Source: a bacterium (GTDB lineage: Bacteria; Ratteibacteria; UBA8468; B48-G9; JAFGKM01). From it: a stretch of 17,464 nt of DNA. Each line of letters begins with the position of its first letter. Within the stretch, counting starts at the first letter, position 1. The notes beneath the pieces are model-generated. The model was not told the origin of the DNA and did not search any database. It saw only the letters and a program-made list of their open reading frames with translations. Shown one piece after another: positions 1,775-17,464 of the stretch. The stretch covers positions 1-17,464 of the forward strand of contig JAGHCG010000223.1 of NCBI GenBank assembly GCA_021160565.1, in the 5' to 3' direction. Both the position numbers and the translations under genes were made by a program.

Positions 1775-3040
1775 ATGGAAATTCTTATAAAAAATGGATA
1801 TTTGATAGACCCTGAGAGTGGAAAAGAAGGAAAATTTGATATTTTAATTTCAAAAGGTGTAATTGAGAAAATCTCAAAAAATATTACCAGAAAGACAAAA
1901 AAAACCATAGATGCAAAAGGGAAAATTGTCTCTCCAGGATTTATAGATATCCATTCCCATTTAAGAGAACCCGGAAGAGAAGATGAAGAAACAATTTATA
2001 CAGGTAGTTTATCTGCTGTAAGTGGCGGTTTTACCACTATTTGCTGTATGCCAAACACTACTCCTCCCCTTGATAATAAAGTTGCTATAAGATATATTGT
2101 GGATAGAGGGAAAGATGCCTTCTGTGAAGTTTTACCAATAGGAACAATAACTCAGAAAAGAGAAGGAGAAGTTCTCTCTCCATATGGAGAAATGGTGGAA
2201 GAAGGAGCAGTTGGTTTTTCTGATGATGGAAATTGTGTTATGAATTCCCTTGTGATGAGAAGAGCTCTTGAATATACAAAACTCCATGGAAAAGTTGTGA
2301 TTTCCCATTCAGAAGATAAAAATCTTGCAAAAAATGGAGTTATGAATGAAGGATCTCTTTCCACAAAACTTGGTTTGAGAGGGATTCCTTCTGAGGCAGA
2401 AGAAATAATGATAGAAAGAGATATAAGACTTGCGATATTGACAGGGGGACTTCTTCATCTTGCACATATCACAACAGAAGGTGGAGTTGAATCCCTTAGA
2501 AAGGTAAAGAAGAAGCACAAAAATATCACAGGAGAGGTAACTGTTCACCATATAACACTCACAGAAGATGCTGTTAAAGGATATAACACAAATGCAAAAG
2601 TTTCCCCTCCTTTAAGAACACAAAAAGATGTGGATGCTCTCATTGAAGGATTGAAAGATGGAACAATTGACTGTATTGTAACAGACCATGCTCCTCATAC
2701 AGAAGAAGAGAAAGAAGCAGGTTTTGAAAATGCTCCTTTTGGAATGATAGGTTTTGAGACCGCTCTCCCTTTAATTCTTAAACTTCAGGATAAAGGGATG
2801 AAACTCAAGGACATACTTTATAAAATAACAGTGGGCCCAGCAAAAATTTTAAAGATAGAAAGGGGAGAAGTTAAAGAAGGTAAAAGAGCAGATATTGTGA
2901 TTTTTGACCCTGACTATGAATGGATATATAAAAAAGAAGAGATAAAAAGCAAAAGTAAAAATTCTCCCTTTATTGGTTGGAAACTTAAAGGAAAGGTTTT
3001 CTATACCATTTATTCTGGCAAAATTGTATATCAGAAGTAA
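1775..3040 (+). CDS. pyrC: Dihydroorotase
   Basis: 421 residues, normal length for a bacterial type I dihydroorotase of the amidohydrolase superfamily. It catalyses the reversible cyclisation of N-carbamoyl-aspartate to dihydroorotate in cytoplasmic pyrimidine synthesis. The metal-binding motif PGFIDIHSHLREPG carries His60, His62 and the substrate-binding Arg64. MPNTTPP follows, and VTDHAPH holds the catalytic Asp304. The C-terminal beta segment 'EVKEGKRADIVIFDP' is also typical. The start is fixed: the codon just before this ATG is an in-frame TAA, and MEILIKNGYLIDP is the usual N-terminus. There is no Shine-Dalgarno sequence because the promoter -10 box ends only 10 nt upstream. It converges with the toxin gene; the 56-nt gap is filled by repeat copy 1. 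The promoter arrangement implies transcription independent of the upstream gene. Confidence 0.95.
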   Translation: MEILIKNGYLIDPESGKEGKFDILISKGVIEKISKNITRKTKKTIDAKGKIVSPGFIDIHSHLREPGREDEETIYTGSLSAVSGGFTTICCMPNTTPPLDNKVAIRYIVDRGKDAFCEVLPIGTITQKREGEVLSPYGEMVEEGAVGFSDDGNCVMNSLVMRRALEYTKLHGKVVISHSEDKNLAKNGVMNEGSLSTKLGLRGIPSEAEEIMIERDIRLAILTGGLLHLAHITTEGGVESLRKVKKKHKNITGEVTVHHITLTEDAVKGYNTNAKVSPPLRTQKDVDALIEGLKDGTIDCIVTDHAPHTEEEKEAGFENAPFGMIGFETALPLILKLQDKGMKLKDILYKITVGPAKILKIERGEVKEGKRADIVIFDPDYEWIYKKEEIKSKSKNSPFIGWKLKGKVFYTIYSGKIVYQK

Positions 3041-3351: not shown

Positions 3352-3568
3352 TCTTCAAAGACTTTCCCACTTCCTCATGAGAAACAAAGTCTTCCTTTGT
3401 TGAAGTCATTGCTCTTTGTTCGGCCACTTTTATATCAAGGTCTTCAAAATATCTCTCTAATGCTTCCTCAATTATTCTACTTTTTGACAATTTTGTTAAA
3501 TTGGAGAAGGTATTTAAAGCCTCAAAAGTTTTCTGTGTTAACAAAATACTTGTCGGAACCTTTCTCAT
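3311..3568 (-). CDS. Ribbon-helix-helix antitoxin
   Basis: 85 residues. The N-terminus, KVPTSILLTQKTFEALNTFS then KLSKSRIIEEALERYFEDL, is a ribbon-helix-helix DNA-binding fold: a short beta strand and two helices that dimerise on palindromic operators. The remaining part (about 45-85) should wrap the RelE/ParE toxin encoded immediately downstream. A strong GGAGGAG (3573-3579) lies 4 nt before the ATG. The C-terminal tail is basic (AQRSRKRT) and overlaps the toxin start by 41 nt; relatives usually end about where 'HEEVGKSL' occurs, so the tail may be a read-on extension after loss of an older stop. Probably autorepressed through the palindrome over its -10 box. Confidence 0.85.
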   Translation of the reverse strand: MRKVPTSILLTQKTFEALNTFSNLTKLSKSRIIEEALERYFEDLDIKVAEQRAMTSTKEDFVSHEEVGKSLKNGNSLAQRSRKRT

Positions 3569-3588
3569 TTTTCTCCTCCAGTAGAGTT

Positions 3589-3612
3589 ATATCATATAAT
3601 ATTATACAATAT
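3589..3612. promoter_or_regulatory. Palindromic operator candidate over the antitoxin -10 box
   Basis: The core TATAATATTATA (3595-3606) is a perfect 12-bp palindrome that includes the antitoxin -10 hexamer, flanked at equal distance by ATAT on each side (3589-3592 and 3609-3612). RHH antitoxins usually bind such sites to repress their own operon. The AT-rich background makes chance palindromes more likely, so this is moderate evidence. Confidence 0.5.
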
Positions 3613-3629
3613 TTCTTTTCTTCCAACAA
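3601..3629 (-). promoter_or_regulatory. Promoter of the toxin-antitoxin operon
   Basis: On the minus strand, TTGTTG (3624-3629) and TATAAT (3601-3606) are spaced by 17 nt. Transcription would start around 3594, giving a leader of about 25 nt that carries the GGAGGAG site of the antitoxin. Confidence 0.65.
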
Positions 3630-3651
3630 CATTTCTCCGGTAAGAAAGAGG

Positions 3652-3711
3652 AAAACCGTCAAATCCCTTGTCTCTCAACCCTTCCAGATGCCGAGGTTTA
3701 GCCTCGGATTA
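3652..3711 (-). repeat. 60-bp direct repeat, copy 2 (hairpin element)
   Basis: Second copy of the element at 3040-3099, same orientation, 57/60 identical. The hairpin CCGAGG-TTTAG-CCTCGG lies at 3691-3707... bounded by the arms just inside the TTA at 3709-3711, which on the minus strand is the TAA stop of the isomerase gene. Between the two copies lies only the toxin-antitoxin module, so module plus one repeat forms a 612-bp unit. Similarity stops abruptly on both sides. Confidence 0.85.
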
Positions 3712-4464
3712 GGGGGAGATGGACCATTTTTTCATGTTTTCTAAACTTATTTTAAGGGATTCAAATGGGTCAATTGTGCTTCTGTCCATTTCAATCAGGC
3801 AGTATCTTACACCTGCTTTCTTACAACTTTCAACAATTCTTTTCCAGTTTAAATTCCCTTCTCCTATTGGTGGCATAACCTGTTGATTATCAATTATCCC
3901 CATATCTTTAAAATGTGTCTCACTCACTCTTCCTGAAAATCTCTCTATCCAGAAAGAAGGGTCTCCTCCACCGAACTGAACCCAGTAAGTATCAATTTCT
4001 GCTTCAAGTCCTTCACAGTTTTCAATCAATATTTCAAGCCCTGTTTTTCCATCATACCTTTCAAATTCTATTCCATGATTGTGATAACCAAGAATAAGTC
4101 CATTTTCCTTTATTTTTGGAAGGACTTTTTCAAAATCTTTTGCAACCTTCAAATATCCCTCTTTATTATGAAGTTCCTTTGGAAGTCCCGGACAGATTAT
4201 TGCTTCACATCCAAGAATTTTATGCTCTTCTATTACTTTTTCTGTTTCTTCAATTATTCTCTGGTAGGAAGTGTGAGTGGAACATATGGTAAGGCCATTT
4301 TCATCTGCTATTTTCTTCAACTCTTTCGGGTCTTTTGGTTCAGTGATTCCTGATGCCTGAATTATGTTAAAACCAATTTCTTTAACTTTCTTCATTGTTT
4401 CTGAAGTATCCTTTGGTGTTTTACAGAACTCTCTCAATGTATACATCTGAACACCTGCTTTCAT
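3709..4464 (-). CDS. Sugar phosphate isomerase/epimerase (xylose isomerase-like TIM barrel)
   Basis: 251 residues, a full-length member of the xylose isomerase-like/AP endonuclease 2 TIM-barrel family. These cytoplasmic, metal-dependent enzymes isomerise, epimerise or dehydrate sugars and sugar derivatives; the exact substrate varies. Visible motifs are YHNHGIEFE (127-135), EIDTYW (156-161, Asp158), HFKD (184-187, His184), the loop PIGEGNLNW (199-207) and IEMD (224-227, Glu225). Asp158, His184 and Glu225 plus a Glu near 134 are the expected metal ligands. There is no signal peptide. A GGGAGGG site (4469-4475) precedes the ATG. It is divergent from the glycosidase-like operon and shares a central operator with it, which suggests it processes a product of those enzymes. 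Its stop codon is shared with repeat copy 2. Confidence 0.88.
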   Translation of the reverse strand: MKAGVQMYTLREFCKTPKDTSETMKKVKEIGFNIIQASGITEPKDPKELKKIADENGLTICSTHTSYQRIIEETEKVIEEHKILGCEAIICPGLPKELHNKEGYLKVAKDFEKVLPKIKENGLILGYHNHGIEFERYDGKTGLEILIENCEGLEAEIDTYWVQFGGGDPSFWIERFSGRVSETHFKDMGIIDNQQVMPPIGEGNLNWKRIVESCKKAGVRYCLIEMDRSTIDPFESLKISLENMKKWSISP

Positions 4465-4493
4465 TTTTCCCTCCCTGTTAAGTTTTTCCGCAT

Positions 4494-4523
4494 ATTATAA
4501 AACTCCCCCTCTTTATGTGTCAA
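4494..4523 (-). promoter_or_regulatory. Promoter of the isomerase gene
   Basis: On the minus strand, a perfect TTGACA (4518-4523) and perfect TATAAT (4494-4499) are separated by 18 nt. Transcription should start near 4487, leaving a leader of about 23 nt with the ribosome-binding site. The -35 box is 3 nt from the central palindrome. Confidence 0.75.
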
Positions 4524-4526
4524 TTC

Positions 4527-4545
4527 TTCCAAACCGGGTTTGGAA
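4527..4545. promoter_or_regulatory. Perfect 9+1+9 palindrome between divergent promoters (operator candidate)
   Basis: TTCCAAACC-G-GGTTTGGAA is a perfect inverted repeat with a single central base. It lies between the two outward-facing -35 boxes, 3 nt from the left one and 4 nt from the right one. A dimeric regulator bound here could act on both promoters at once. No regulator gene is in the window. The length and perfect symmetry make chance unlikely. Confidence 0.75.
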
Positions 4546-4549
4546 AAAC

Positions 4550-4578
4550 TTGACAAATTCTGGGAGATATATTATATT
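4550..4578 (+). promoter_or_regulatory. Promoter of the three-gene glycosidase-like operon
   Basis: TTGACA (4550-4555) and TATATT (4573-4578, 5 of 6 to consensus) are separated by 17 nt. The expected start near 4585 gives a leader of about 28 nt ending in AGGAGG (4603-4608) just before the ATG at 4613. Confidence 0.75.
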
Positions 4579-4612
4579 AACCGTAAATAAAAACCAGTAA
4601 ATAGGAGGAGAG

Positions 4613-7600
4613 ATGAAAGTGAAAAAATTATTCTTTATATCCTTCCTTCTTTTTTCTTTTGCCGGTTATCCAACTGAGAAAGACTTGTTTGACGAAGTTG
4701 AGAAGTGGAAAAGAGAAATAGAAGAACTTGAGAAGAAAACAGAGCAGGCAAAGAAAAAACTTATAGAAGCGATGAAGAGATTGAATGAGACAAAGAAGAA
4801 ATCCCAGCCAGAAATTACAGAATTACAGTTTTACATTCCGAAAATGAAAAAGCCACCGAAAATAGATGGAATAATTGATGAAGAAGAGTGGAAGGATGCC
4901 ATTTTAATACCAATTACAGCAGGAATTTATGGTATGATGGAAAGGCCGAGTTCTGTATTTTATGTTGGCTGGGACCCTGAAAATTTTTATGTTGCCCAGA
5001 GATTACCTATGAGAAAAGGAGAAAAACCGTTGAGGTTAAACAGAGAGCCAAAGCATGATAATGTTTACTGCGGAGAGACAAGTGTTGAGGTGTGGATAGA
5101 TAGAAGAGGGACTGGTTCAAAAGGACACAGAAGCAGATATCAGTTTATGGGAAATGCAAGTGGAAATAAATGGGATAGAGAGGAAGAGTTTGAAATTGGA
5201 CAGAATAATATTATGTGGGATGGAGAATGGGAATATAAACAGCGTCTTACACCTGATGGGAAATACTGGGAGGCAGAAATAGCAATTCCGAGAAAAACAA
5301 TTTATCAGCCAGAGCCAATAAAAGATGGAGATATATGGTATCTGGGACTTGCAACAAATCTACACAGACCATGGACTTTCAGCGGATTTTACAGATGGAA
5401 TATATGCGGGATATTCAAAGAAAAAACACCTGTGATAAGAATGTACCATCCTGAAAGGTCTTTAAAAGGGAAAAAGATTGTTTTTGATATGTACATAAAA
5501 AATACGACTGATAAAAAGTTTGAAGGAGAAGTTATAGGAGCGCTTATTGATGGAAGGAATAAAAAGAAAATTATTTTTGAAAAAAGAAAAAAAATATCGC
5601 TGGAACCAGGAGAGGAAGTAAATATTAAATTTGATGAGGAAGTTAAACAGGCAAAGGACAAATATCCATACAGAATTACCATTATGGTTGTGAGTGAAGG
5701 AAGATCATATTATACATGGGCTTATCCAATAAAATACAATGACCCGAATAATAAATATGGATTGAATTATGTTCCTGAAGAAGCACCTTTCATTTTAAAA
5801 ACTTTTTACAATCCTCTAAGAAATTATTTGAGAGTTGTGGTTGATAAATATGATGTTCCAGAAAAAGAAAAGATAAAAAAAGCGCTCTGTTATGTTTTGA
5901 ATAGTAAAAATGAGAAAGTTGGAGAAGGAGAGATTAAAAAATTTCCCTATGATAAGGGACAGATAAAGATTTCTCTTCCAGTTTTAACTCCAGGGAAATA
6001 TCTCTGTAAAGCAGAACTTGTTGATGAGAAAGGAAATGTTAAGTATTCCCATTCAGTGAGTTTTGAAGTGAAGGATTTAAAAGAGTTTCCATGGCTCAAT
6101 AACAAAATAGGTGAGGAAGATATACTTTTAAAACCATTTAAACCATTGAAAGTCAAAAGAGATACTATATACGGATATAAAAAAGAAATTAAACTTTCAG
6201 GTCTTGCTCTTCCTTCCTATGTTAAAGCAGCAGGGGTTGAGTTGCTCTCCTCTCCTGTAAAAATTATCGGGAAAAGTAAAGAAAAGTATTTTGAAATAAA
6301 ACCTTTAAGAAAAAAGCCACGTAAAATAAAAGTTTCAGAAACAAAAGTTGAATACAGAGGGGAAGGAAAGGGAGGACCTTTAAGGATAGAAACAGATTAT
6401 TTACTTGAATATGATGGAACTGCAAAGATAAAAATTAAGTTGAAACCCAGAAAAGAAAAGGCAGAAATTGAAGAGTTGAAAATAGTAATTCCATTCAAGA
6501 AAGAATCAGCAACTCATATGATGACGGTTGGACTTGATTTCAGGGGGTCTTGCAAAGCAGGTTATATTCCAGAAGGAGAAGGAGTTGTGTGGAGTTCAAA
6601 AGAAGTACCTTATCAGAAAATGACTGTTGGCTCTTTTGTTCCGATTGTTCATGTGGGGAATTTAAACAGTGGAATTACCTGGTTTGCTTCAAATGATAAA
6701 GGTTGGTGGCCTTCTGATAAAAAAGCAGCAATTGAAATTGTAAGAAAAGGGAAGGAGGTTTTACTTGTTCTGAATATTGCTTCTGAAAGAGTTGAGTTTT
6801 CAGGAGAAAGGGAGATAATTTTTGGACTGTGTACTGTCCCGACAAGACCTGTAAGTGAGTATAAAAAGCCAAGTGTGGTTGTGAGTTTTGGAGCAGCAAT
6901 TGAAAGTGGAAGGTGGAACCCTGAAAAAACGCCAAATAGAAATGATGCGGCACACAGAGTTTATCCAGATGATATTGAAAAATTTAAAAAATTTGCAGCA
7001 GCTCATCACAGATATAATGAAATAATAATTCCATATACTGAACAAAATCAAACAAATGTATGGAAACATGAGTATGAATATTTTAAAGAAGAATGGAGAC
7101 AGACAGAAGATGGTGGATTTATTTTCTGTGAGAGTTCAAATGACTGTATGATTTACTGGACTGAAAAATGGATTAAGGAAGGAAAAATAGATGGATATTA
7201 TCTTGATAATGTCTGTGCAAGGATAAACTGGAATACTCACTCTGGAAATGCATACTATTTACCTGATGGAAGAATTCAGCCAGGATTTGACCTATGGGAG
7301 TTGAGGGATTATGTTAAGAGGTTAAGGACTATATTCCAGAAATACAGAAATCCAGCAATGATATGTATCCACAATACAAGATTTCAGTTTGCTCCAATTT
7401 TATCTTTTGCTGACCTTGCTATGGGAGGAGAAATGCCAACTCCATGGCCAGAAGGACCTGACTTTATGGATATGTATCCGAGAGATTTTATGGATGTTAT
7501 GTACAATCCCTATCTGTGGGGATACAAAATTTCCCATCTTTACCATTTCAGATGGAAAAATTTTAAAGATGTGTTTGGAAATTATGACAGGGAAAAGGCA

Positions 7601-8119
7601 ATGAAGGCACACAGGACAGCAATGGCAACAATGCTTGTTCATGGAGTTGAGTTCTTTCAGGGAATTGAATATAAATCATTTCTGATGAATAAATTTAAGT
7701 TGCTGAAAAAATTACCTGGAAAATTCGAATTTATACCGAGCTGGAAGGCAAATGGATTGTTTAAAGTTGTTGGGAATGACCCTGATATTGATGTTGCTGT
7801 TTATAAAAAAGAGGATGTGCTTTTGATTATAGCGGCAAATTATTCAAAGAAAAAGAAAAAGGCAAAAATCTGGTTCGATTTTCCAAAACTTATAAATCTT
7901 CCTGATAAAATGGAAAGAAGGGTTATTGTTGACTTTGAAACATTTGAATTTCCAGGATATATAATTCCAAAGGCAGATACTCCAAGAGCATGGAGGTGCG
8001 GAGGTATACCTCACAATACAATGCATATACCAAATACAATGATTTTTAATATTGAGCCAAGGGATTTCAGAGCATTCTTACTAATAAATTTACCTGAGGC
8101 AAAAGGAGCAGGATTCTGA
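4613..8119 (+). CDS. Secreted GH123-like protein A: coiled coil, CBM9-like domain, DUF6067-type core
   Basis: 1168 residues, first gene of the operon. A signal peptide (about 1-19) is followed by a charged coiled coil (about 24-66) and a CBM9-like carbohydrate-binding beta sandwich (about 72-275, opening KPPKIDGIIDEEEWKDA). One or two Ig-like beta domains follow (about 280-490). The DUF6067/GH123-like N-terminal domain begins WLNNKIG (W494), with VGSFVP and NDKGWW further on. A TIM-barrel-like region (about 754-1070) and a small C-terminal beta domain complete it. Candidate active-site acids are Asp865 in GYYLDN and Glu940 in FADLAMGGE, both in positions conserved in protein D. GH123 enzymes remove N-acetylgalactosamine using an Asp-Glu pair, but the true substrate here is unknown. 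Exported, with no lipobox or anchor visible. The stop is 15 nt before protein B's start. Confidence 0.75.
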   Translation: MKVKKLFFISFLLFSFAGYPTEKDLFDEVEKWKREIEELEKKTEQAKKKLIEAMKRLNETKKKSQPEITELQFYIPKMKKPPKIDGIIDEEEWKDAILIPITAGIYGMMERPSSVFYVGWDPENFYVAQRLPMRKGEKPLRLNREPKHDNVYCGETSVEVWIDRRGTGSKGHRSRYQFMGNASGNKWDREEEFEIGQNNIMWDGEWEYKQRLTPDGKYWEAEIAIPRKTIYQPEPIKDGDIWYLGLATNLHRPWTFSGFYRWNICGIFKEKTPVIRMYHPERSLKGKKIVFDMYIKNTTDKKFEGEVIGALIDGRNKKKIIFEKRKKISLEPGEEVNIKFDEEVKQAKDKYPYRITIMVVSEGRSYYTWAYPIKYNDPNNKYGLNYVPEEAPFILKTFYNPLRNYLRVVVDKYDVPEKEKIKKALCYVLNSKNEKVGEGEIKKFPYDKGQIKISLPVLTPGKYLCKAELVDEKGNVKYSHSVSFEVKDLKEFPWLNNKIGEEDILLKPFKPLKVKRDTIYGYKKEIKLSGLALPSYVKAAGVELLSSPVKIIGKSKEKYFEIKPLRKKPRKIKVSETKVEYRGEGKGGPLRIETDYLLEYDGTAKIKIKLKPRKEKAEIEELKIVIPFKKESATHMMTVGLDFRGSCKAGYIPEGEGVVWSSKEVPYQKMTVGSFVPIVHVGNLNSGITWFASNDKGWWPSDKKAAIEIVRKGKEVLLVLNIASERVEFSGEREIIFGLCTVPTRPVSEYKKPSVVVSFGAAIESGRWNPEKTPNRNDAAHRVYPDDIEKFKKFAAAHHRYNEIIIPYTEQNQTNVWKHEYEYFKEEWRQTEDGGFIFCESSNDCMIYWTEKWIKEGKIDGYYLDNVCARINWNTHSGNAYYLPDGRIQPGFDLWELRDYVKRLRTIFQKYRNPAMICIHNTRFQFAPILSFADLAMGGEMPTPWPEGPDFMDMYPRDFMDVMYNPYLWGYKISHLYHFRWKNFKDVFGNYDREKAMKAHRTAMATMLVHGVEFFQGIEYKSFLMNKFKLLKKLPGKFEFIPSWKANGLFKVVGNDPDIDVAVYKKEDVLLIIAANYSKKKKKAKIWFDFPKLINLPDKMERRVIVDFETFEFPGYIIPKADTPRAWRCGGIPHNTMHIPNTMIFNIEPRDFRAFLLINLPEAKGAGF

Positions 8120-8134
8120 AAAAAGGGGGAAATT

Positions 8135-11100
8135 ATGAAAAGGTTTTTAATCCCTTTTTTCATTTTCTCTGTAAGTTTGTTTTCAACTCAGACATCTTTC
8201 TGGAGACCCTATAAAATGGATGATTTTACCTATGCTCTTTTCCATTTTGACAAACAGGATTTTTCTGATTATCAGGGGAAAATAAAAAATGTTGAGGTAA
8301 AAGGAGATGTGAAATTAAAAGAAGGGAAATTTGGAAACTGTGCAGAGTTTGATGGAAAAGGATTTATTGAGTATGAAACAGATGAAATTTTTCCTGGTGG
8401 CTACATTTCAATGGAAGCGTGGATAAAAGTTAAAAAGTATCCGGAGGATAAAGCATATATTATTTTCAGACCAGCAAGAGTTGATAAAAGTGCGAAATAT
8501 AATCCAGAGGTTGATAAAACAAAAGGATTTTCTTTATATATTGATTCAAAAGGTGGACTTCATATGGCAATTACAAATACTTTCTATGGAAGAACAACAA
8601 TAACTTCTTCTCCCGAAGGAACAATTCCTCTTAATAAATGGGTTCATATTGCTGGAATAAGTGCCAATTTCCCTGTATCTTTCAGAAGATTGTATTTGAA
8701 TGGGAAAGAAATAGTTGCAAAACCAATTGAGTGGGGTCAGGGAATAGTTGTTCATAGAGAGGAGGAAATAGAGCCGTCACCCATTTATATAGGTAAAGGA
8801 TTCTGTGGATTTATAGATGAGGTTAGAATTCACAGGAAGGTTTTTAAATTATGGGAGAAAGAAAATACAGAATGGACAGACCCGAAAAAAGAAAGAGAAA
8901 TAGAGAAAAAGCCTCCTTTTTTCCTCTCTTCACACACACCTGTTTTTTATTTACCTCTTGATGGAAACGTAAAACCAGAAATAAACAGAATAGGAGAAGT
9001 TAAAATTACAGAAAAAGGAGAATTTATTAAAGGTGGGGTGAGAGGTGGCTTTTTCAGAGGAAGTGTAAGTTTGAGGAAAGAGAAAATAATAAGTCTTGAT
9101 GAGGGAAGTATTGAATTCTGGTTTCAACCATATGGAGTTAATAATTACTCTGACAGGAATGTATCATTTTTGAATGTATGGCCTGGTTTTAATTTTTACA
9201 TATTCAATGGTGGAGGCCCTGGAAGACCTCTTTCAATATATTTCAGAAAAAATGAGGGAAATCTCAAATTCATTTCTTCTTCAATAGATGTATATGAAGG
9301 CAAATGGTATCATGTGGTTATAACCTGGAAAGGTGAGGAAATAAGAGTTTATATAGATGGAAAAAAGACAGCAGAAAGTTCAGGAACCAGTTTTCATACA
9401 AAATGGAATGAAGGATATGCAAATAGTGTAAATTTTAAAGGAGAATGGAAAGGGAATCTCTATGCACAATTTGATGAAATATACCTGTATGATAAAGCAT
9501 TGACAGAAGATGAGGTGAAAAATGCTTACTGGAGATACAGGGATAAAAGAAAACTGGTAAAGGGAATAAAAGTATATCCTGTTGAAGTTAAAGTTCAATA
9601 TTTACCTTCTTTTAATACAGTTTATTACAGGATAATTCCTCACACAGAAAAAGAAATAAAGAATGTAAGGTTAGAAATTTTAAATCAGAAAGGAAAAAGA
9701 ATATTTACCAGAATTGTCAGTTATTCTGAAAAGGAAGAAAAAATAAAAATACCTTCTCTTGCTGAAGGAAAATATATCTTTAAAGTTTATGCACAAATTG
9801 AAGGAAAATATGAAGAGGGAAAACCATTTGAGTTTGTGAGGAAAAAATTTATATGGGAAGGGAATAACCTTGGAATAACAGAAAAAATTTATCCTCCATT
9901 TACACCAGTAAAGGTAAAAGGGAAGAAAGTGGATGTTGTTTTGAGAAGTTATAAGATGAATGGTTTTGGTCTCTGGGATGAAGTTATAAGTAAAGGTGTA
10001 AACATTTTATCTTCTCCAATAACCCTGAATTACATAACTGAAAAAGGGAAAGGAAAATGGATAAGTAAAAAAATAAAAGTGGTAAAAAGGAGACCTGATA
10101 AAGCAATATTTTCAGCAAGAGCATATTCAGAGGATATTGAAATAAGGACAAAATCAACTGTTGAATTTGATGGGTGTATGAAAGTTGAAATGGAAATAAA
10201 ACCTGGAAAAAGTAAATCAGAAATAAAGGAAATGTATATTGAAATACCGGTAAAGGAAAAGTATGCTTCTCTCTTTCATGAAGTCACAGATGGACCAAGG
10301 ATAAACTATTCAGGGAAATTACCAGAAGGAAAGGGGAAAATATGGGATAGTACACAGGCAAAAAGGAATGGAAGATGGCTGAATAGTTTTGTCCCTTATA
10401 TCTGGATAGGGACTGAAGAGAGGGGAATTTGCTGGTTTGCTGAAAATGATAAAGGATGGATAACTGAAAAGGATAATGGGAAAAAACCATTGCAGGAGAT
10501 AATAAGAAAAGATGGAGATGTTATATTGAAAATTTACCTGATTAACAAGCCGGTGATTTTAAATAAACCAACTTCTCTTGTTTTTGGTCTTCAAGCATCA
10601 CCAACAAAACCAATGCCTGAAAACTGGAGAGAAAAATTACCATATATTCCGGGTGGTCTTGCTGTTGTCCCATGGGGAGGACTTCACTGTTCATATCAGG
10701 GACCTTATAGAGATGACTGGAAAATAGTTGATAAAATTCTGGAAGCAAGATATAAAGGGAAAGTTGATAAGGAATTGAGGGAATGGTTTATTGATTATGC
10801 CAAAAAGTATAATCCACCACCTCCTCATGGAACATGGTTATGGACAAGTAGTGTTTTACATTTTGCTTCATGGGCTTCAAGAGTCGGACCGGAAAAACCT
10901 TTAAGTGTTTATCAGGAAGAAATGGCAGCAAGTACTGTAAGAGATGAGTGGAAAACATATCAGGATGAATGGACAACAGAACCATTTCTTTATGAAAGAG
11001 ATTGGCCAGATGAAAAAATTTTCAGGCAGGGAAGAAATGCTAATCCATCAGCAAGAGTTAATTTCATAAAAAGTTATCAAGATTTTGGTGTATGGTTTGC

Positions 11101-11908
11101 AAATGAATGGCTGAAAAGAGGGGTTAGTTTATACTGGGACAACACATATCCTCATCTTTCCTATAATTTCAGAACAACAGATGCATATATAGCAGAAAAT
11201 GGATTAATTCAGCCATGTGTGATTATATGGAATCAGAGAGAATATCAGAAAAGAGTATGGAATTGCCTCGGATACTGGAGAGAAAAGAGAAAAGAACCTC
11301 TTGAATGGATAATACATATGACAAATACGTTGCTTTTGCCTGTTCATACATTTGCAACTGCTGACCTTGACCATGAACTTGGAAGTAAAAAACCATTTCC
11401 ACCTGACTGGTTGAGAACAGAAACAATTGGACTACAGGTTGGGAATTATCCTCTTTCTCTTTATCCTGTCAGTGGAAGCAAAAATGAAATAATAAAGAAA
11501 CTGCCAGAGGAAAAAAGGAAAAAAATAGAATGGGGAATGAGGATGGTTCATGAAATTCAGAGAAGAGAAAATAAATGGGAAAAAATAGTGAGAGAATTTG
11601 GATATGGAAAGAAAGATGTGAAAGTTTACAATTACTGGGGAGAAAATCCAGCAATTGAAGTTAACAATGAGAAAGTTAAATGGATATGCCTTGTAAATAA
11701 TGATAAAAAGGAGATTATGGTAGTTCTTGCAAGCTGGGATGAAAATGATGTGAATGTGAAAATAAAAATTAATTCTCAAAATACAGGGTTTGGAATAGAT
11801 GAGAAAAATATTGTTGATGCAGAAAGTATGGAAAAAATTGATATAGAAAACATAAAACTTGAAGGTCCTTATGGAGTTAAAATTATAAAATCAGGAGGGA
11901 AGAAATGA
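8135..11908 (+). CDS. Secreted GH123-like protein B with two LamG domains
   Basis: 1257 residues; AAGGGGGA (8123-8130) precedes the ATG. A signal peptide (about 1-18) leads into two laminin-G/concanavalin A-like lectin domains. LamG1 spans about 28-240, with FGNCAEFDGKGFIEY, then WIKV, then GFIDEVRIH. LamG2 spans about 268-468, with WYHVVITWKGEEIRVYIDGK and AQFDEIYLYDKALTEDEV. An Ig-like domain precedes the shared core starting WEGNNLGI (W574), with NSFVP and ENDKGW. The barrel region begins near 844. Candidate catalytic residues are Asp1002 (LYWDN) and Glu1081 (DLDHE). The 'PDGRIQPGF' loop of A and D is replaced by ENGLIQP. LamG domains often bind or shape sugar polymers, so target choice probably differs from A. 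It overlaps protein C by ATGA. The core assignment is confident as a family; the reaction is unknown. Confidence 0.75.
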   Translation: MKRFLIPFFIFSVSLFSTQTSFWRPYKMDDFTYALFHFDKQDFSDYQGKIKNVEVKGDVKLKEGKFGNCAEFDGKGFIEYETDEIFPGGYISMEAWIKVKKYPEDKAYIIFRPARVDKSAKYNPEVDKTKGFSLYIDSKGGLHMAITNTFYGRTTITSSPEGTIPLNKWVHIAGISANFPVSFRRLYLNGKEIVAKPIEWGQGIVVHREEEIEPSPIYIGKGFCGFIDEVRIHRKVFKLWEKENTEWTDPKKEREIEKKPPFFLSSHTPVFYLPLDGNVKPEINRIGEVKITEKGEFIKGGVRGGFFRGSVSLRKEKIISLDEGSIEFWFQPYGVNNYSDRNVSFLNVWPGFNFYIFNGGGPGRPLSIYFRKNEGNLKFISSSIDVYEGKWYHVVITWKGEEIRVYIDGKKTAESSGTSFHTKWNEGYANSVNFKGEWKGNLYAQFDEIYLYDKALTEDEVKNAYWRYRDKRKLVKGIKVYPVEVKVQYLPSFNTVYYRIIPHTEKEIKNVRLEILNQKGKRIFTRIVSYSEKEEKIKIPSLAEGKYIFKVYAQIEGKYEEGKPFEFVRKKFIWEGNNLGITEKIYPPFTPVKVKGKKVDVVLRSYKMNGFGLWDEVISKGVNILSSPITLNYITEKGKGKWISKKIKVVKRRPDKAIFSARAYSEDIEIRTKSTVEFDGCMKVEMEIKPGKSKSEIKEMYIEIPVKEKYASLFHEVTDGPRINYSGKLPEGKGKIWDSTQAKRNGRWLNSFVPYIWIGTEERGICWFAENDKGWITEKDNGKKPLQEIIRKDGDVILKIYLINKPVILNKPTSLVFGLQASPTKPMPENWREKLPYIPGGLAVVPWGGLHCSYQGPYRDDWKIVDKILEARYKGKVDKELREWFIDYAKKYNPPPPHGTWLWTSSVLHFASWASRVGPEKPLSVYQEEMAASTVRDEWKTYQDEWTTEPFLYERDWPDEKIFRQGRNANPSARVNFIKSYQDFGVWFANEWLKRGVSLYWDNTYPHLSYNFRTTDAYIAENGLIQPCVIIWNQREYQKRVWNCLGYWREKRKEPLEWIIHMTNTLLLPVHTFATADLDHELGSKKPFPPDWLRTETIGLQVGNYPLSLYPVSGSKNEIIKKLPEEKRKKIEWGMRMVHEIQRRENKWEKIVREFGYGKKDVKVYNYWGENPAIEVNNEKVKWICLVNNDKKEIMVVLASWDENDVNVKIKINSQNTGFGIDEKNIVDAESMEKIDIENIKLEGPYGVKIIKSGGKK

Positions 11909-14900
11909 AAAAATTTGGTTTAATCAGCATACTTTTAATTCTTTTCTCTGTAAAACTTTCTTTTTCACAATCATATCAATATCCTTTTGCAATTGTTCCC
12001 TACGTTGGAGGCAGTTCCCCCCAGATTGATGGAACTGTTGGTGAAAAAGAGTATAAAAATTTTCTCGCAATAACAGGAATGGTTACTTGGGGTGGTCCTT
12101 CAGGAGAATTGAAATCAGTTGTTCCATCAATTCAGCAGGTTATCTGGTTTCTTGGGTATGATGATAAATACTTCTATATCGCAATGAAATCACCAAATCC
12201 ACCTGAGAGCTGGCCACTGGCAAGGGTTAAAAAATATGATGAGAGTTTCAAAATTCTCTGGGATGACCATGTTGAAATTCAGATAGCAAAAGATAGAGAA
12301 AAAGCAACTTTTCCCGGAATTGGTTTTTACAAAATTATGGCAAATGCAAAAGGTTATTACTCTGATGAATGGTATATGAATGGAACTCCGGGAACAGAAA
12401 GCGAGTGGTCAATTGGTGGGAAAGTGAAATGTTCTGTAAATGAGAAATTCTGGGATATGGAAATAGCGATCGATATTAGAGCATTTGAAGAGGAAAGTCT
12501 TGATGGGGAAAAATGGGTTTTACAGCTTTTAAGGGCAGATGAACCGGGTGGAATTTATTTTGCTGGCTGGGTTGGTGAAGCGTGGATGTCCTGGAAAAAG
12601 TTTGGAGAGGTTTTGTTTGACAGGAAAGCGCCGGTTTTCAGGTTTCTTGATACAGGTAAACTTGCGAGAGGAAATATGGATTTGAAATTTGAAATTACAG
12701 GACAGACAGAAAAGGAAACGCCTGTTTTTACTTCTGTAAGTGTTTATAATTCAGAAGGTAAGAAAATATTTGAGAAAGAGGAAAGGACAGTTGCGGTTAA
12801 AGGAAAAACAGAAAAACTGGAGTTTACCTCAAAATTGTCTCTGAGTGAAAAAGGAAAAAACAGAATAAAGATTTACTCGTATTACACTGATGGGAAAGGA
12901 AAGAACCACTTACTGTATAGATTTGAAGCACCTATTATATATCACACAGAAAGTTACTGGGCGAAACATATAAAACCGTGGCTTGAAAGGAAACCAAAAG
13001 CAGATTATGAGTGGAATTTTGCTTACTGGCCAAGTTATAATGTGGCTGAAGTTAAGGTTGATTTTGATTTCTTTGGACTTGATAAAAAATATGAAAAAGC
13101 AAAATATTTTGAAGTTTATGTAAAGGGGAAAAGAAGAATCTATGGGAAATCAAAAGAGATGATAAAAAATAAGCAGGGTTATACCATCTTTAAAAATCTG
13201 AATTTACCCACTGGAGAGTATAAGGCAGAGATAAGAATTTTTGATGAAAAAAACCGCTTACTTGATAAAAAATCAATTTCTTTTGTAAGAAAGAAATATA
13301 AATGGGAAAATAATAAACTCGGAATTTCTGATAAAGTCTGGCCTCCCTATAAACCAATAAAAGTCCTTGGTGAAAGGGAATTTGAAGTATGGAACAGAAA
13401 ATATGTTTTTGGTGTAAATGGACTTTTTGAGAAAATTTTTGCTGGTGGTGGAGATGGAATGGAGAATATTCTTTCAGGGAAGATGGATTTTTATATGGAG
13501 ATTTCAGGGAGAAAAGCAAAAGCAGAAAAACCTCTGTTAAAGATAAAAGAAGTAAAACCTGGGAAAGTGAAATTTGAAGGGAAAGGAAGATTTGGAGATT
13601 TGAAATATGAGATTGAGAGTTTTCTTGAATATGATGGATGGTATGATTTCACAATTACTTTAATTCCTGAAAAAGAAAAAGTTGAAGTTGATGAATTTTA
13701 TCTTTCAATTCCTTTATGGAATAAAGTGGATACAATGTACATTCAGAGAGCAGGGGATGGAAGGAGAGGGAATAAGTTTGGTTCATTGCCAGAAGGAAAA
13801 GGACTTATATGGAGCAGTCAACAACTTTTACCTTTTGAGGACTGGGGAAGTTTTGTTCCAATTGTTTTTCTTGGAAATGGAGATAAAGGATTATGGTGGT
13901 TTGCTGAGGAAAAGAGAGATTGGGAATTGAGTGATAAAAAGGGATGCATTGAGATTTACAGAAGAGATAAAAACATTGAGTTGAGAATAAACATATTTGG
14001 GAAAAAGGCAGAAGTAAAAAGTCCAAGGAAGATACATTTTGCTTTCCTTGTTGATCCTGTTAAACAAATTCCAGATGAAAGAAAATGGGCATGGGGAAGA
14101 CTGAAATATGGACATAGCACTTATGGATACAGATATTATGGTGGGAGTGTTGATGGATTTGAAAATACTGATAAAGACCTTGAGGCATTGAGGAAAGTTT
14201 TTATTGACCCTGAATGGAAACCAGAAAAAAAACCAGAGAATAAAAGCAGTCTCATACATATGTATCATTTCAGAAACCATGCTTACAATTCTGTTGGATT
14301 GAAAAATCAGATGTTTGTTCTTTATGGTTCAACTTCTTTGACAGGTCTTGGACTTGATGCTTTCGATACATACGGAGGAGAATGGCTTGGAAAAACAAAC
14401 TGGGAGACACATCCTCAGACAGAATTTAAAGGATGGGTGAATTCACAGGGAACAAAAGAGTGGAAAACAGATAGAGAACTTACAACTGTTGGAGTGAATT
14501 TCACCCGTTCTTTTGAAGATTGCTTTGTCTGGTATCATTACAAACTTTTATCAAAAGTGCCTGTGAATGGAACATGGTGGGATAACAGGTCAATAACAGT
14601 TATAAAGGATTATGACCCTGAAAGAGGGGAATTTTACAAAAGATTTAATGTTTTCACAAGAAGAAGGTTGACAAAACGACTTTTCAATATTGGCTATGAA
14701 CTTGGAAGAAGACCCTGGTGGATTAACAATATGCATGTTGACTGGTCTTTCTGTCAGGTTTCCTGGCATGTTGAAAATGATTTTTACATAGACAATGCTG
14801 ATATGACAATGATGGAGCAGTTACCTGTTGACCAGTTCAGAGCATTATGCAGGATTAAAAGAGGAATAATTCATCGACTTGCCTCAAGAAGTCCTGCCGG

Positions 14901-15369
14901 GAATAATGAGCAGATAAGAAAACAGGGAAGGTCAATAATTGGAATGTGTTTACTCCACGATATAGGAAGTTATTTCTGGGGACCTGACAGATATTTTGCA
15001 GATGCCATTTTAAACCTTCTTGAAGAAAAGGTGGGATTTTTTGAAGGGGCAGAGTTTATACCTTACTGGAGAAATGAGAAATATTTAAAGATAAAAACAG
15101 AAGGAGTATATGCATCAATTTACAGAGGGAGAGGGAAAGCAGTTATTGTTGTTGTGAATGAAGATAGAAAAAGCAAGAATGTTGAATTTGAAATTTCAGA
15201 CAGCATCCTTAAAGGCAAAATTATTTCAAAAATTTATGATGGAGAAACAGGAATTTCTTTCGGTAAATACTATGACAGAAAAGAAAGAAAACGTAAATGG
15301 GGTGAATTTGGAAAACCAGGAATTTTTGGAATAGGCGGATGTGAAGTCAGATTTCTTGTTGTGGAATAA
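11905..15369 (+). CDS. Secreted GH123-like protein C with CBM9-like domain and divergent active site
   Basis: 1154 residues, last gene of the operon. Its ATG overlaps protein B's TGA (ATGA) with AGGAGGGA 4 nt before it, so translation is probably coupled. A signal peptide (cleavage likely after SFS, about residue 21) precedes a CBM9-like domain (about 30-260, opening SPQIDGTVGEKEYKNF). Beta domains follow, then the core beginning WENNKLGI (W467), with WGSFVP. The NDKGW motif of its relatives reads EEKRDW here. The barrel begins near 729; Asp893 in TWWDN fits the first catalytic-like Asp. The GxIQP loop is missing, and the FADLAMGGE-type segment is replaced by WHVENDFYID (954-963), so the partner acid is uncertain (Asp963 or Glu957). 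It may have another specificity or be a binding protein. It meets protein D tail to tail. Confidence 0.72.
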   Translation: MKKFGLISILLILFSVKLSFSQSYQYPFAIVPYVGGSSPQIDGTVGEKEYKNFLAITGMVTWGGPSGELKSVVPSIQQVIWFLGYDDKYFYIAMKSPNPPESWPLARVKKYDESFKILWDDHVEIQIAKDREKATFPGIGFYKIMANAKGYYSDEWYMNGTPGTESEWSIGGKVKCSVNEKFWDMEIAIDIRAFEEESLDGEKWVLQLLRADEPGGIYFAGWVGEAWMSWKKFGEVLFDRKAPVFRFLDTGKLARGNMDLKFEITGQTEKETPVFTSVSVYNSEGKKIFEKEERTVAVKGKTEKLEFTSKLSLSEKGKNRIKIYSYYTDGKGKNHLLYRFEAPIIYHTESYWAKHIKPWLERKPKADYEWNFAYWPSYNVAEVKVDFDFFGLDKKYEKAKYFEVYVKGKRRIYGKSKEMIKNKQGYTIFKNLNLPTGEYKAEIRIFDEKNRLLDKKSISFVRKKYKWENNKLGISDKVWPPYKPIKVLGEREFEVWNRKYVFGVNGLFEKIFAGGGDGMENILSGKMDFYMEISGRKAKAEKPLLKIKEVKPGKVKFEGKGRFGDLKYEIESFLEYDGWYDFTITLIPEKEKVEVDEFYLSIPLWNKVDTMYIQRAGDGRRGNKFGSLPEGKGLIWSSQQLLPFEDWGSFVPIVFLGNGDKGLWWFAEEKRDWELSDKKGCIEIYRRDKNIELRINIFGKKAEVKSPRKIHFAFLVDPVKQIPDERKWAWGRLKYGHSTYGYRYYGGSVDGFENTDKDLEALRKVFIDPEWKPEKKPENKSSLIHMYHFRNHAYNSVGLKNQMFVLYGSTSLTGLGLDAFDTYGGEWLGKTNWETHPQTEFKGWVNSQGTKEWKTDRELTTVGVNFTRSFEDCFVWYHYKLLSKVPVNGTWWDNRSITVIKDYDPERGEFYKRFNVFTRRRLTKRLFNIGYELGRRPWWINNMHVDWSFCQVSWHVENDFYIDNADMTMMEQLPVDQFRALCRIKRGIIHRLASRSPAGNNEQIRKQGRSIIGMCLLHDIGSYFWGPDRYFADAILNLLEEKVGFFEGAEFIPYWRNEKYLKIKTEGVYASIYRGRGKAVIVVVNEDRKSKNVEFEISDSILKGKIISKIYDGETGISFGKYYDRKERKRKWGEFGKPGIFGIGGCEVRFLVVE

Positions 15370-15376
15370 TTATTCC
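15363..15376. other. Perfect palindrome spanning two abutting stop codons
   Basis: GGAATAATTATTCC is a perfect 14-bp palindrome. Its left half holds the final Glu codon and TAA of protein C; its right half holds the same for protein D on the other strand. There are no intervening bases between the convergent genes. It is too AT-rich and lacks a loop or T-run for a convincing bidirectional terminator. Confidence 0.7.
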
Positions 15377-17464
15377 AAAAAAATTATTCTGAAATCTCTT
15401 GCTGGAACATTTATTTCAAATTCTGAGTTTGAAAGAGGAATTTGTTTTTTGTTTTCATAATCAAAAATTTTCCCTTTGTTTTTAAGAGATTTCCTTATTT
15501 TTATTTTCAAATTCTTCTCTTTTTTTGACCAGTTTGTAATAACAGAAGCCCATTTTTCTCCCATATTCCAGACACTTATCAGTATATCCTCTGAGGGAGT
15601 AGAAGTTAAAGACCTATTTCTGTAATAGGGAATAAAGTTAGCATTTTCTATTCCTACAATTTCAGGACATTTAACATCTATGAGATACAATATTCCCTCA
15701 AAAGTTCTTCTCAATTTTCTATCTCTCTCACGGTCAGGAAGTTTGTCTCTAACAGGATTTAAAAACTGAAATCTGTAACCCATTGAGTGAACATCATCAC
15801 AACTCCTCAGAATTTCAGGAGTCCAGAAATCCATACTGTCAAAATTCTTCATTTTTTCAAAATTACTCCTTGTGAAATAATTACATTCACCTTCATAGGC
15901 AATATCTGTAAATGATAAAACCATGGGAATATTGCAGTGTGTCATATGTGTTATGACATGAGGAAATTTTCTTCCCATTGAGTAAAGAAAACATTTATAC
16001 CTTTTGACAATCTCCCTCATATTCATAACATTAAATCCTGGCTGAATTCTTCCATCAGGTAATTTATAGGCAGTTCCTCTTACTGTATCAAAATTAAGGC
16101 AGGGATAAATCATATCAATGTAAATTCCATTTATCACACCTGTTGCTTCTATCCACTTTTTAAATTTATAAAGAGAAAAATCAAGTAAACTTTCAGGGAA
16201 AAGAGAATCCCAGTAATAACCTATTGTGTAAAATTTACCATATCTTTCAGGACACCATTCATATCTGAAATATTCTTCCCATTCATTTCTATCATTATGA
16301 GCCCTGTAAGCAGTAAAAGGCATAATATGAAAATCTTTGCTTAATCTTTTCAAAACTTTTATACTCAAATCCATTTTATCATCATCAGGCCAGGGAGAAT
16401 ATGTGCAACTTCTTCCATGATAAGGGAAAAAGGCACCCCATCTTGGCATTTTTCTCCAGTTTTTTCCAGGCGTCTTAACAGGAGTTGCCATCCATCCAAA
16501 ACCAATTTCCCTTTCTTTCTTTAATTTTGTCTTTACAGGAATCAGATTTATTTTCACAACAACATTTCCGCTTTTCTCCCTCATTACTTCAACAGATGGA
16601 ATATCATCTTTAACAACCCATCCCTTATCATTATCAGCGCACCAGCTTATACCTCCCTTTTCATTTCCCAGATACCAGTAAGGAATTAAAGAACCAACAG
16701 TCATCCACTTGCTCTTTTCCTTCAAAATCGGTATATATTTCCCATCTTCTTTCTTCATCCATAAACCACTTCTTGAATAAAAACCATCAAGAGGTGTCCA
16801 TATTTTCCCTCCCTTTTCAGGTAAAACACATCCAAACCAGGCACTTATACTTCTTGCAGTATGGAAACATTCTCCAATTTCTTTTTTAACAGGAAATTCC
16901 AGAATCAGGTTTTCAACAGAAATAGTTTTTTCAGGGATAATTTTTAACTTAACAGATGAAAAACCATCAAATTCTATTTTTTGATCTATCTGAAATTTTA
17001 TATTTTTAAATTCAAATTCCTGAAGAACCTCAGCATATTCGTCACTTTTTCTCATTATCTTTACCTTTTTCGGCTTCTTTAATACAAATGAAACTCCATC
17101 AATTTTCCCTCTCAGAGATACTGGTCTTGAAAGAACTTCTTTTCCCTTACATTTTACAGAGCCAACGATACCTTTTGAAAAGTCATATTCTCTTAAAAGC
17201 ACATAAACTTTTTTCCCTTTCACTTCAACTGGTTTCCATGGTTTAGGAATTACTCCAAGACCAAGTTTATTACCAAGCCACTCAATTTTTTTAATTTCAA
17301 ATGGTTTTTCACTTTCATCAATTTTTTTATCTCCTTTTATGAAAGAGCAAACCACTTTATAAATCCCTTCTCTTAAATCTGAAATGTCCATAATCTTTTC
17401 TTCTTCAAACACATAAGCCATTTCTTTTTTTACAACTTTATTTTTATCAGAAAGAATTTTTATG
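15370..17464 (-). CDS. GH123-like protein D, partial at its 5' end
   Basis: The frame stays open through the internal ATG at 17419-17421 to the window edge, reading IKILSDKNKVVKKE before that Met. This matches the Ig-like domain of its paralogues, so the true start, signal peptide and any binding module lie outside the window. About 697 residues are visible. Counting from the internal Met, the DUF6067/GH123-like core begins WLGNKLGL (W48), with VGSLIP and NDKGWV, and the barrel starts near 350. Asp436 (GIYIDM) and Glu512 (AYEGE) correspond to Asp865 and Glu940 of protein A, and the loop LPDGRIQPGF is identical to that of A, so D is A's closest relative in this cluster. It converges on the operon and must have its own promoter beyond the edge. 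Probably secreted and active on a related sugar polymer. Confidence 0.75.
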   Translation of the reverse strand, partial: IKILSDKNKVVKKEMAYVFEEEKIMDISDLREGIYKVVCSFIKGDKKIDESEKPFEIKKIEWLGNKLGLGVIPKPWKPVEVKGKKVYVLLREYDFSKGIVGSVKCKGKEVLSRPVSLRGKIDGVSFVLKKPKKVKIMRKSDEYAEVLQEFEFKNIKFQIDQKIEFDGFSSVKLKIIPEKTISVENLILEFPVKKEIGECFHTARSISAWFGCVLPEKGGKIWTPLDGFYSRSGLWMKKEDGKYIPILKEKSKWMTVGSLIPYWYLGNEKGGISWCADNDKGWVVKDDIPSVEVMREKSGNVVVKINLIPVKTKLKKEREIGFGWMATPVKTPGKNWRKMPRWGAFFPYHGRSCTYSPWPDDDKMDLSIKVLKRLSKDFHIMPFTAYRAHNDRNEWEEYFRYEWCPERYGKFYTIGYYWDSLFPESLLDFSLYKFKKWIEATGVINGIYIDMIYPCLNFDTVRGTAYKLPDGRIQPGFNVMNMREIVKRYKCFLYSMGRKFPHVITHMTHCNIPMVLSFTDIAYEGECNYFTRSNFEKMKNFDSMDFWTPEILRSCDDVHSMGYRFQFLNPVRDKLPDRERDRKLRRTFEGILYLIDVKCPEIVGIENANFIPYYRNRSLTSTPSEDILISVWNMGEKWASVITNWSKKEKNLKIKIRKSLKNKGKIFDYENKKQIPLSNSEFEINVPARDFRIIFLE

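Follow-up and report, generated by a model that had tools for sequence, protein, structure and literature searches.

A PF19543/DUF6067-core family of large, probably secreted proteins in an uncultured Ratteibacteria genome, with a candidate active site unlike that of GH123

The contig JAGHCG010000223.1 (17,464 nucleotides, analysed over its full length and referred to here as the window) is contig C214 of a draft genome of the lineage JAFGKM01, in the uncultured phylum Ratteibacteria (GCA_021160565.1; 1.23 Mb, 265 contigs, rated 78% complete). It carries four large genes, named A to D, whose products are best explained as secreted, multi-domain retaining glycoside hydrolases of a single uncharacterised family, which is built on a PF19543 (DUF6067) core and which, by its active site, does not belong to GH123. 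This reading is given a probability of roughly two in three, retaining glycosidase chemistry taken by itself being about as probable, while the odds that an alpha linkage is the target are about even. The four genes and their barrel domains are arranged as follows (aa, amino acids).

4613..8119, + strand: gene A, 1168 aa, with a helix (residues 22-62), a beta-domain (69-269), two beta-domains (about 303-486), a beta-supersandwich (494-743), a barrel (744-1036) and a C-terminal beta-domain
6842..7720, + strand: barrel of A, residues 744-1036
8135..11908, + strand: gene B, 1257 aa, with two LamG stretches followed by the shared core (574-1254)
10604..11614, + strand: barrel of B, residues 824-1160
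11905..15369, + strand: gene C, 1154 aa, with a front end (1-466) followed by the shared core
14059..15045, + strand: barrel of C, residues 719-1047
15370..17463, - strand: gene D, 697 aa present, its 5' part truncated by the contig end
15646..16479, - strand: barrel of D, residues 329-606

All four proteins match PF19543 above the curated Pfam cut-off of 22 bits (A 77.3, B 83.1, C 74.7 and D 50.2 bits), and they have in common a core formed by the PF19543 beta-supersandwich, a (beta/alpha)8 barrel and a C-terminal beta-domain, to which differing front ends are attached. A core profile of 655 positions, with A to D among its 15 seeds, was covered from position 1 to 653 or 654 in all four, and a barrel profile built without the window proteins recovered the four window barrels at 99.8-100%. 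A sequence-only reading of the window had proposed four proteins with a common core and different front ends, and both observations are borne out, the first by these matches and profiles and the second by the helix and beta-domains of A, the two LamG stretches of B and the front end of C, in which, as in three relatives, no Pfam match above a cut-off was found, a result that is uninformative as to whether this front end is fixed. The N-terminus of A looks signal-like by eye.

Within the barrel, an Asp and a Glu are each invariant in 98/98 aligned sequences, and are accompanied by an Arg (position 903 of A) in 97/98 and a His (position 920 of A) in 89/98. A separate, earlier alignment (n = 80) gave Asp in 80/80, Arg in 80/80, His in 78/79 and Glu in 79/80. 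The distance from the Asp to the Glu is 75 residues in A, 79 in B, 64 in C and 76 in D, and the two are encoded at the following positions.

7205..7207, + strand: A Asp865, putative nucleophile, directly after strand 861-864 of the model
7430..7432, + strand: A Glu940, putative acid/base, directly after strand 935-939 of the model
11138-11140, + strand: B Asp1002, by alignment
11375-11377, + strand: B Glu1081, by alignment
14581-14583, + strand: C Asp893, at the end of strand 4
14773-14775, + strand: C Glu957, at the end of strand 6
16114-16116, - strand: D Asp450, by alignment
15886-15888, - strand: D Glu526, by alignment

Structures were predicted for full-length A, with 50 relatives in the alignment (mean predicted local distance difference test score, pLDDT, 91.6), and for the core of C, with 51 (mean pLDDT 84.7). 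The C-core model has strands at 270-273, 338-343, 395-398, 424-427, 487-491, 524-529 and 556-559, and represents an eight-stranded barrel provided that a one-residue bridge at 475 is counted as the fifth strand. In both models, the Asp ends strand 4 and the Glu ends strand 6, and the glycosidase-type fold that the sequence-only reading expected of the cores was found in A and C alike. In a Foldseek search with the C core, the first three ranks were occupied by entries of FpGalactosaminidase (8x1b, expectation value E 3.4e-15; template modelling score, TM, 0.43-0.46), which we take to be a GH36 enzyme, with the GH36 enzyme AgaA at rank 4, GH97 and GH36 entries next, and GH36 TmGalA and NagBb, presumably of GH129, lower down. 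These enzymes provide the best rows for the C core; the window family differs from them in lacking a Pfam sequence match to them, in bearing extra front ends and in reaching only moderate TM scores. The search speaks more for a similar order of domains than for a close fit of the two folds.

The position of the two acidic residues is also that of the alpha-galactosidase superfamily (GH27, GH31 and GH36), in which barrel strand 4 ends in an Asp and strand 6 in an acidic residue. For GH27 and GH31, the former is described as the nucleophile and the latter as the proton donor, and axial bonds are cleaved (PMC1249566). By analogy, the Asp of the window family would attack the anomeric carbon and the Glu would serve as the acid/base, and the resemblance in layout suggests an axial (alpha-D-type) linkage as the target.

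The name GH123, on the other hand, leads to a different active site, given that the enzymes of that family use a consecutive Asp-Glu pair with help from the acetamido group of the substrate (PMC11087588). If A to D were GH123 beta-N-acetylgalactosaminidases with such substrate-assisted catalysis, the Pfam name of PF19543 (GH123_N) would be accounted for, as would its use as the GH123 domain in a 2026 annotation database (PMC13355591), although the catalytic domain PF13320 (DUF4091, GH123_cat) is matched neither by A to D nor elsewhere on their contig, and in this genome is found on contig C20 only. The consecutive pair is not conserved either, with the motif DEP present in 2/98 barrels of the family versus 8/8 GH123-type proteins compared, six of which were chosen from their loci by that very motif, the other two being the C20 proteins of this genome. 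The best PF19543 stretches of A to D fall within profile positions 315-598 (B also matches 864-940), whereas the two true GH123 proteins on C20, which have PF13320 and DEP, match positions 189-312 and 260-312; in the barrels of two relatives, weak matches (E 0.024 and 0.036) cover positions 716-748, where the Asp lies. One long PF19543 profile thus spans both kinds of protein, and since the two kinds match different stretches of it, the GH123 label extends to the window by way of parts that GH123 does not share. Profile comparison of the family barrel with the eight GH123-type proteins gave 0.1% for the set and 0.1-2.4% singly, against 99.8-100% for the window's own barrels as a positive control. 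What is left in common with the GH123/PF13320 enzymes is an accession, shared by name, and a large, multi-domain build with a barrel. GH123 membership is therefore considered very improbable, and the description of the proteins as GH123-like in the sequence-only reading does not stand, given the missing PF13320 match, the missing Asp-Glu pair and the other Asp/Glu layout.

A similar case may have been recorded before. The deep-sea metagenome protein dssm_1 was assigned to GH123 by profile, has neither the DE motif nor DUF4091, has a barrel like that of the GH66 cycloisomaltooligosaccharide glucanotransferase (CITase) 3WNM, and was excluded as a candidate by its authors (PMC11087588). Set side by side by description only, it resembles the window family in these respects and may be an earlier sighting of it.

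The more remote relatives of the barrel were sought by a Pfam scan of 30 barrels, the four of the window included, in which the barrels of four relatives (L052, L053, L055 and L056) matched GHL6, DUF6259 or GH66, all below the cut-off. GHL6 (PF14871) was matched by 3/30 barrels (best E 4.5e-7; best score 30.6 bits, cut-off 35), DUF6259 (PF19773) by 3/30 (best E 1e-5; 25.2 bits, cut-off 28.7) and GH66 (PF13199) by 2/30 (E 0.011 and 0.051; best 14.9 bits, cut-off 23.7). The three GHL6 matches all end at the conserved strand-4 Asp or one residue past it. In profile comparison, the DUF6259-like protein L071 (26.0 bits, against a cut-off of 28.7) reached 89%, its Asp and Glu aligning with those of the family, and L074 (DUF6259, 133 bits) reached 54%; L072 and L073, with GH66 matches below the cut-off, gave 0.3% each, and these proteins together with L069, compared as one set, gave 83%. 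Dihydroorotase gave 0.2% and the IolE-like barrel 0.7%. The GHL6, DUF6259 and GH66 barrels thus resemble the family by weak matches in 4/30 barrels and by the aligned pair of L071, and differ from it in that every match lies below the curated cut-off and none falls in the window's four barrels. The tie to the DUF6259/GHL6 kind is accordingly uneven and distant, with no tie to GH123 found by the same comparison.

These weak matches bear on the possibility that the same Asp and Glu act by inversion, or transfer glycosyl groups in the manner of the GH66 CITase. The two GH66 matches and the barrel described for dssm_1, which possibly belongs to this family, point in this direction, and GH97 provides an example of retention and inversion arising on one fold (PMC2670981). 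The same paper gives about 5.5 A as the mean distance between the two acids of retaining enzymes. The GH66 scores, however, lie below the cut-off, PF13199 is not matched by A to D, and inverting GH97 enzymes have a Gly in place of the strand-4 Asp (PMC1249566, PMC2670981), whereas the window family keeps this Asp in every aligned barrel. Inversion or transfer is hence regarded as unlikely, while being the most serious of the alternatives.

Several observations weigh against the reading of A to D as retaining hydrolases of the alpha-galactosidase type. The acid/base of GH36 is an Asp, and the window family has a Glu in this position. Pfam profiles of the alpha-galactosidase superfamily (GH27, GH31 and GH36) were matched neither by A to D nor by the 30 barrels, and 26 of these, including the window's four, gave no match to GHL6, DUF6259 or GH66. 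L069, which exceeds the DUF6259 cut-off (52.5 bits), reached 0.3% in profile comparison, and a set of five GH66-type proteins gave 6% together and 0.1-1.2% singly (four of the five tried), the matches of the four proteins scanned singly falling in the last part of the GH66 profile. On the structural side, barrel strand 3 did not emerge in the model of A, and the best C-core superpositions are moderate (TM 0.43-0.46, root-mean-square deviation about 11). In the Foldseek search with full-length A, the top rows were of the LacZ type (TM about 0.16), with FpGalactosaminidase (9awt) at rank 30 (TM 0.26/0.40). A second structural look at both models was filled by the beta-supersandwich of LacZ, PL26 and GH38 enzymes, which matched residues 503-743 (approximately) of A, so that the barrel was barely probed; residues 69-269 of A matched the binding protein 4jpq. 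None of the 50 rows listed in these second looks names a GH123 or a GH66 chain, an absence that is uninformative given that the supersandwich fills the lists, and sequence searches of the PDB with A, the barrel profile, the A profile and the C-core profile yielded no convincing relative.

It could also be supposed that A to D have no catalytic role and serve in binding or at the cell surface, or that they are lyases. The structural match, however, is about as long as the beta-supersandwich (494-743), which is matched in LacZ and GH38 as well, and the strict conservation of Asp, Glu and Arg in the barrel is what an active site predicts, which makes this explanation improbable.

The arrangement of the genes was attributed by the sequence-only reading to repeated local duplication followed by module swapping, which would account for four family members lying side by side. 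A quick tree built from 79 cores, in which several branches are long, that of D among them, places the nearest kin of A, B and C in other genomes or records, namely P0002 for A (63% identity), L026 of genome G014 for B (62%) and L019 of G009 for C (73%), and the best match of D besides itself is P0057 (49%), which lies outside the tree. When A to D were forced into one clade, the log-likelihood fell by 1314 units and the constraint was rejected (approximately unbiased test, p-AU 0.002), in a quick tree with a long D branch. The cores are, moreover, only 22-29% identical pairwise, and the pair of LamG stretches of B is retained in 5/5 of its relatives. Local duplication with swapping is thus hardly tenable, and the four genes represent old, separate subfamilies. 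Given the retention of the LamG pair and the near-invariance of I84, D85, G86 and W93 in the front end of A (aligned with 50 relatives), the front ends look fixed within the A and B subfamilies, and may tether each enzyme to a different part of a glycan.

The spacing of A, B and C is operon-like, since B starts 15 bases past the end of A, and the first 4 bases of C still lie within B; D is convergent with C. A B-type gene adjoins a C-type gene at four of six B-type loci examined (a seventh B-type gene, on contig C76 of G009, is excluded from the count), these being the window, G014, where a C fragment 69% identical precedes B, contig C71 of G020 (57%) and G011 (38%). At the two remaining loci, both in G020, B stands by itself (C54) or next to different family members (C70). 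The strongest argument for a joint function is this recurring B-C pairing, which together with the A-B-C spacing suggests that A, B and C, if co-expressed, would together dismantle one complex glycan. Of the proposal that the cluster forms an enzyme set for one polymer, then, the joint role is plausible and the origin by duplication is not upheld. The statement that no transporter, sulfatase or known CAZyme lies beside the genes is correct for the window; elsewhere in the same genome, contig C20 (L013) has a sulfatase (PF00884, E 9.8e-54) near the two true GH123 genes, and may represent a separate candidate glycan locus. No SusC/SusD pair was present among the seven window genes scanned, the contig ending on both sides of the locus.

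Other features of the window lie to the left of gene A.

58-1701, + strand: 547-aa secreted-looking protein, with Pfam matches all below the cut-off (GLMA_2nd, 5.9e-4)
1775-3040: dihydroorotase gene; the first of its matches to bear a lineage name are from 'Candidatus Ratteibacteria' (75% identity) and 'Candidatus Omnitrophica' (74%), ranked behind slightly better ones that bear none
3709..4464, - strand: divergent neighbour of A, a sugar isomerase-type TIM barrel (PF01261)
4523-4494, - strand: promoter-like site, 12/12 match, facing the oppositely oriented gene
4527-4545: perfect 19-base palindrome, TTCCAAACCGGGTTTGGAA, before gene A
4550..4578, + strand: promoter-like site upstream of A, TTGACA-17-TATATT, 11/12 match

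The two promoter-like sites are the best and well-placed ones singled out from a scan of positions 3500-17464, in which 56 sites were found against 46.9 expected, and the divergent PF01261 gene is possibly co-regulated with A. Neither an Rfam match nor a tRNA was found when the window was scanned for them. The palindrome was considered as a regulator operator of gene A, a proposal that was rejected given its dispersed copies, which were found at five other places in the genome with up to three mismatches (reversed control, 0). Three of these (C190:4735, 4749 and 5443) occur at either end of an IS200-type transposase open reading frame (ORF; L080:4772-5461, Y1_Tnp, E 2.1e-9), and the others are found where a transporter-like ORF ends (C87:1633) and downstream of a gene (C164:573), which makes a repetitive extragenic palindromic (REP)-type element the likelier interpretation.

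Prepilin-like genes, recognised by an N-methyl motif, are abundant in four relatives (46-73 matches per genome) and absent from the window. In the fetched loci, such a gene lies within 2 kb of 14/32 core genes versus 16/58 other genes longer than 300 aa, a weak link, with one core gene dropped for a missing flank and one locus left out. In this genome (C145, C152 and C98; L015, L014 and L065) and in relatives, some adjoin large secreted-looking enzymes; on C152 (L014:59-4355), the genes of a LacI-type regulator, a prepilin-like protein and another member of the family stand in a row, and rows that include a regulator-like and a prepilin-like gene were also seen by eye in relatives, L052 and L058 among them.

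Of the 35 genomes covered from the phylum, which is small and uncultured, 20 matched the barrel profile and 15 gave no match. The genome of the window has 6 matches, G017 has 30 (29 of them at E <=7.4e-23), G019 has 24 and G020 has 19, a few proteins giving two matches each. Given that the names borne by proteins found with the A core include Kiritimatiellia, Victivallales, Brocadiia and Verrucomicrobia, the family reaches beyond the Ratteibacteria. The term DUF6067 was not mentioned in the literature searched, which covered few of the subscription papers; PF19543 was found there only as a GH123 domain, in PMC13355591, and no enzymatic activity turned up for the PF19543/DUF6067-core family. 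A bolder proposal, which we hold tentatively and at somewhat less than even odds, is that the core defines a new family in CAZy, made up of retaining alpha-glycosidases that the GH123 label conceals. This family would be a main set of glycan-degrading enzymes in an uncultured phylum, where it would have radiated, up to 29 strong copies being present in a single genome of 2.7 Mb, with binding modules proper to each subfamily.

Annotation pipelines based on PF19543 will name these proteins GH123, as in the database that equates the two (PMC13355591), and, given this, beta-GalNAc degradation as counted in metagenomes may take in proteins whose active site is a different one. The family is widely copied and uncharacterised, with as many as 30 matches in a single genome, and it has a clear candidate catalytic pair, an Asp and a Glu, that makes the prediction testable. 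The family also provides a first concrete guess at the food source of members of an uncultured phylum.

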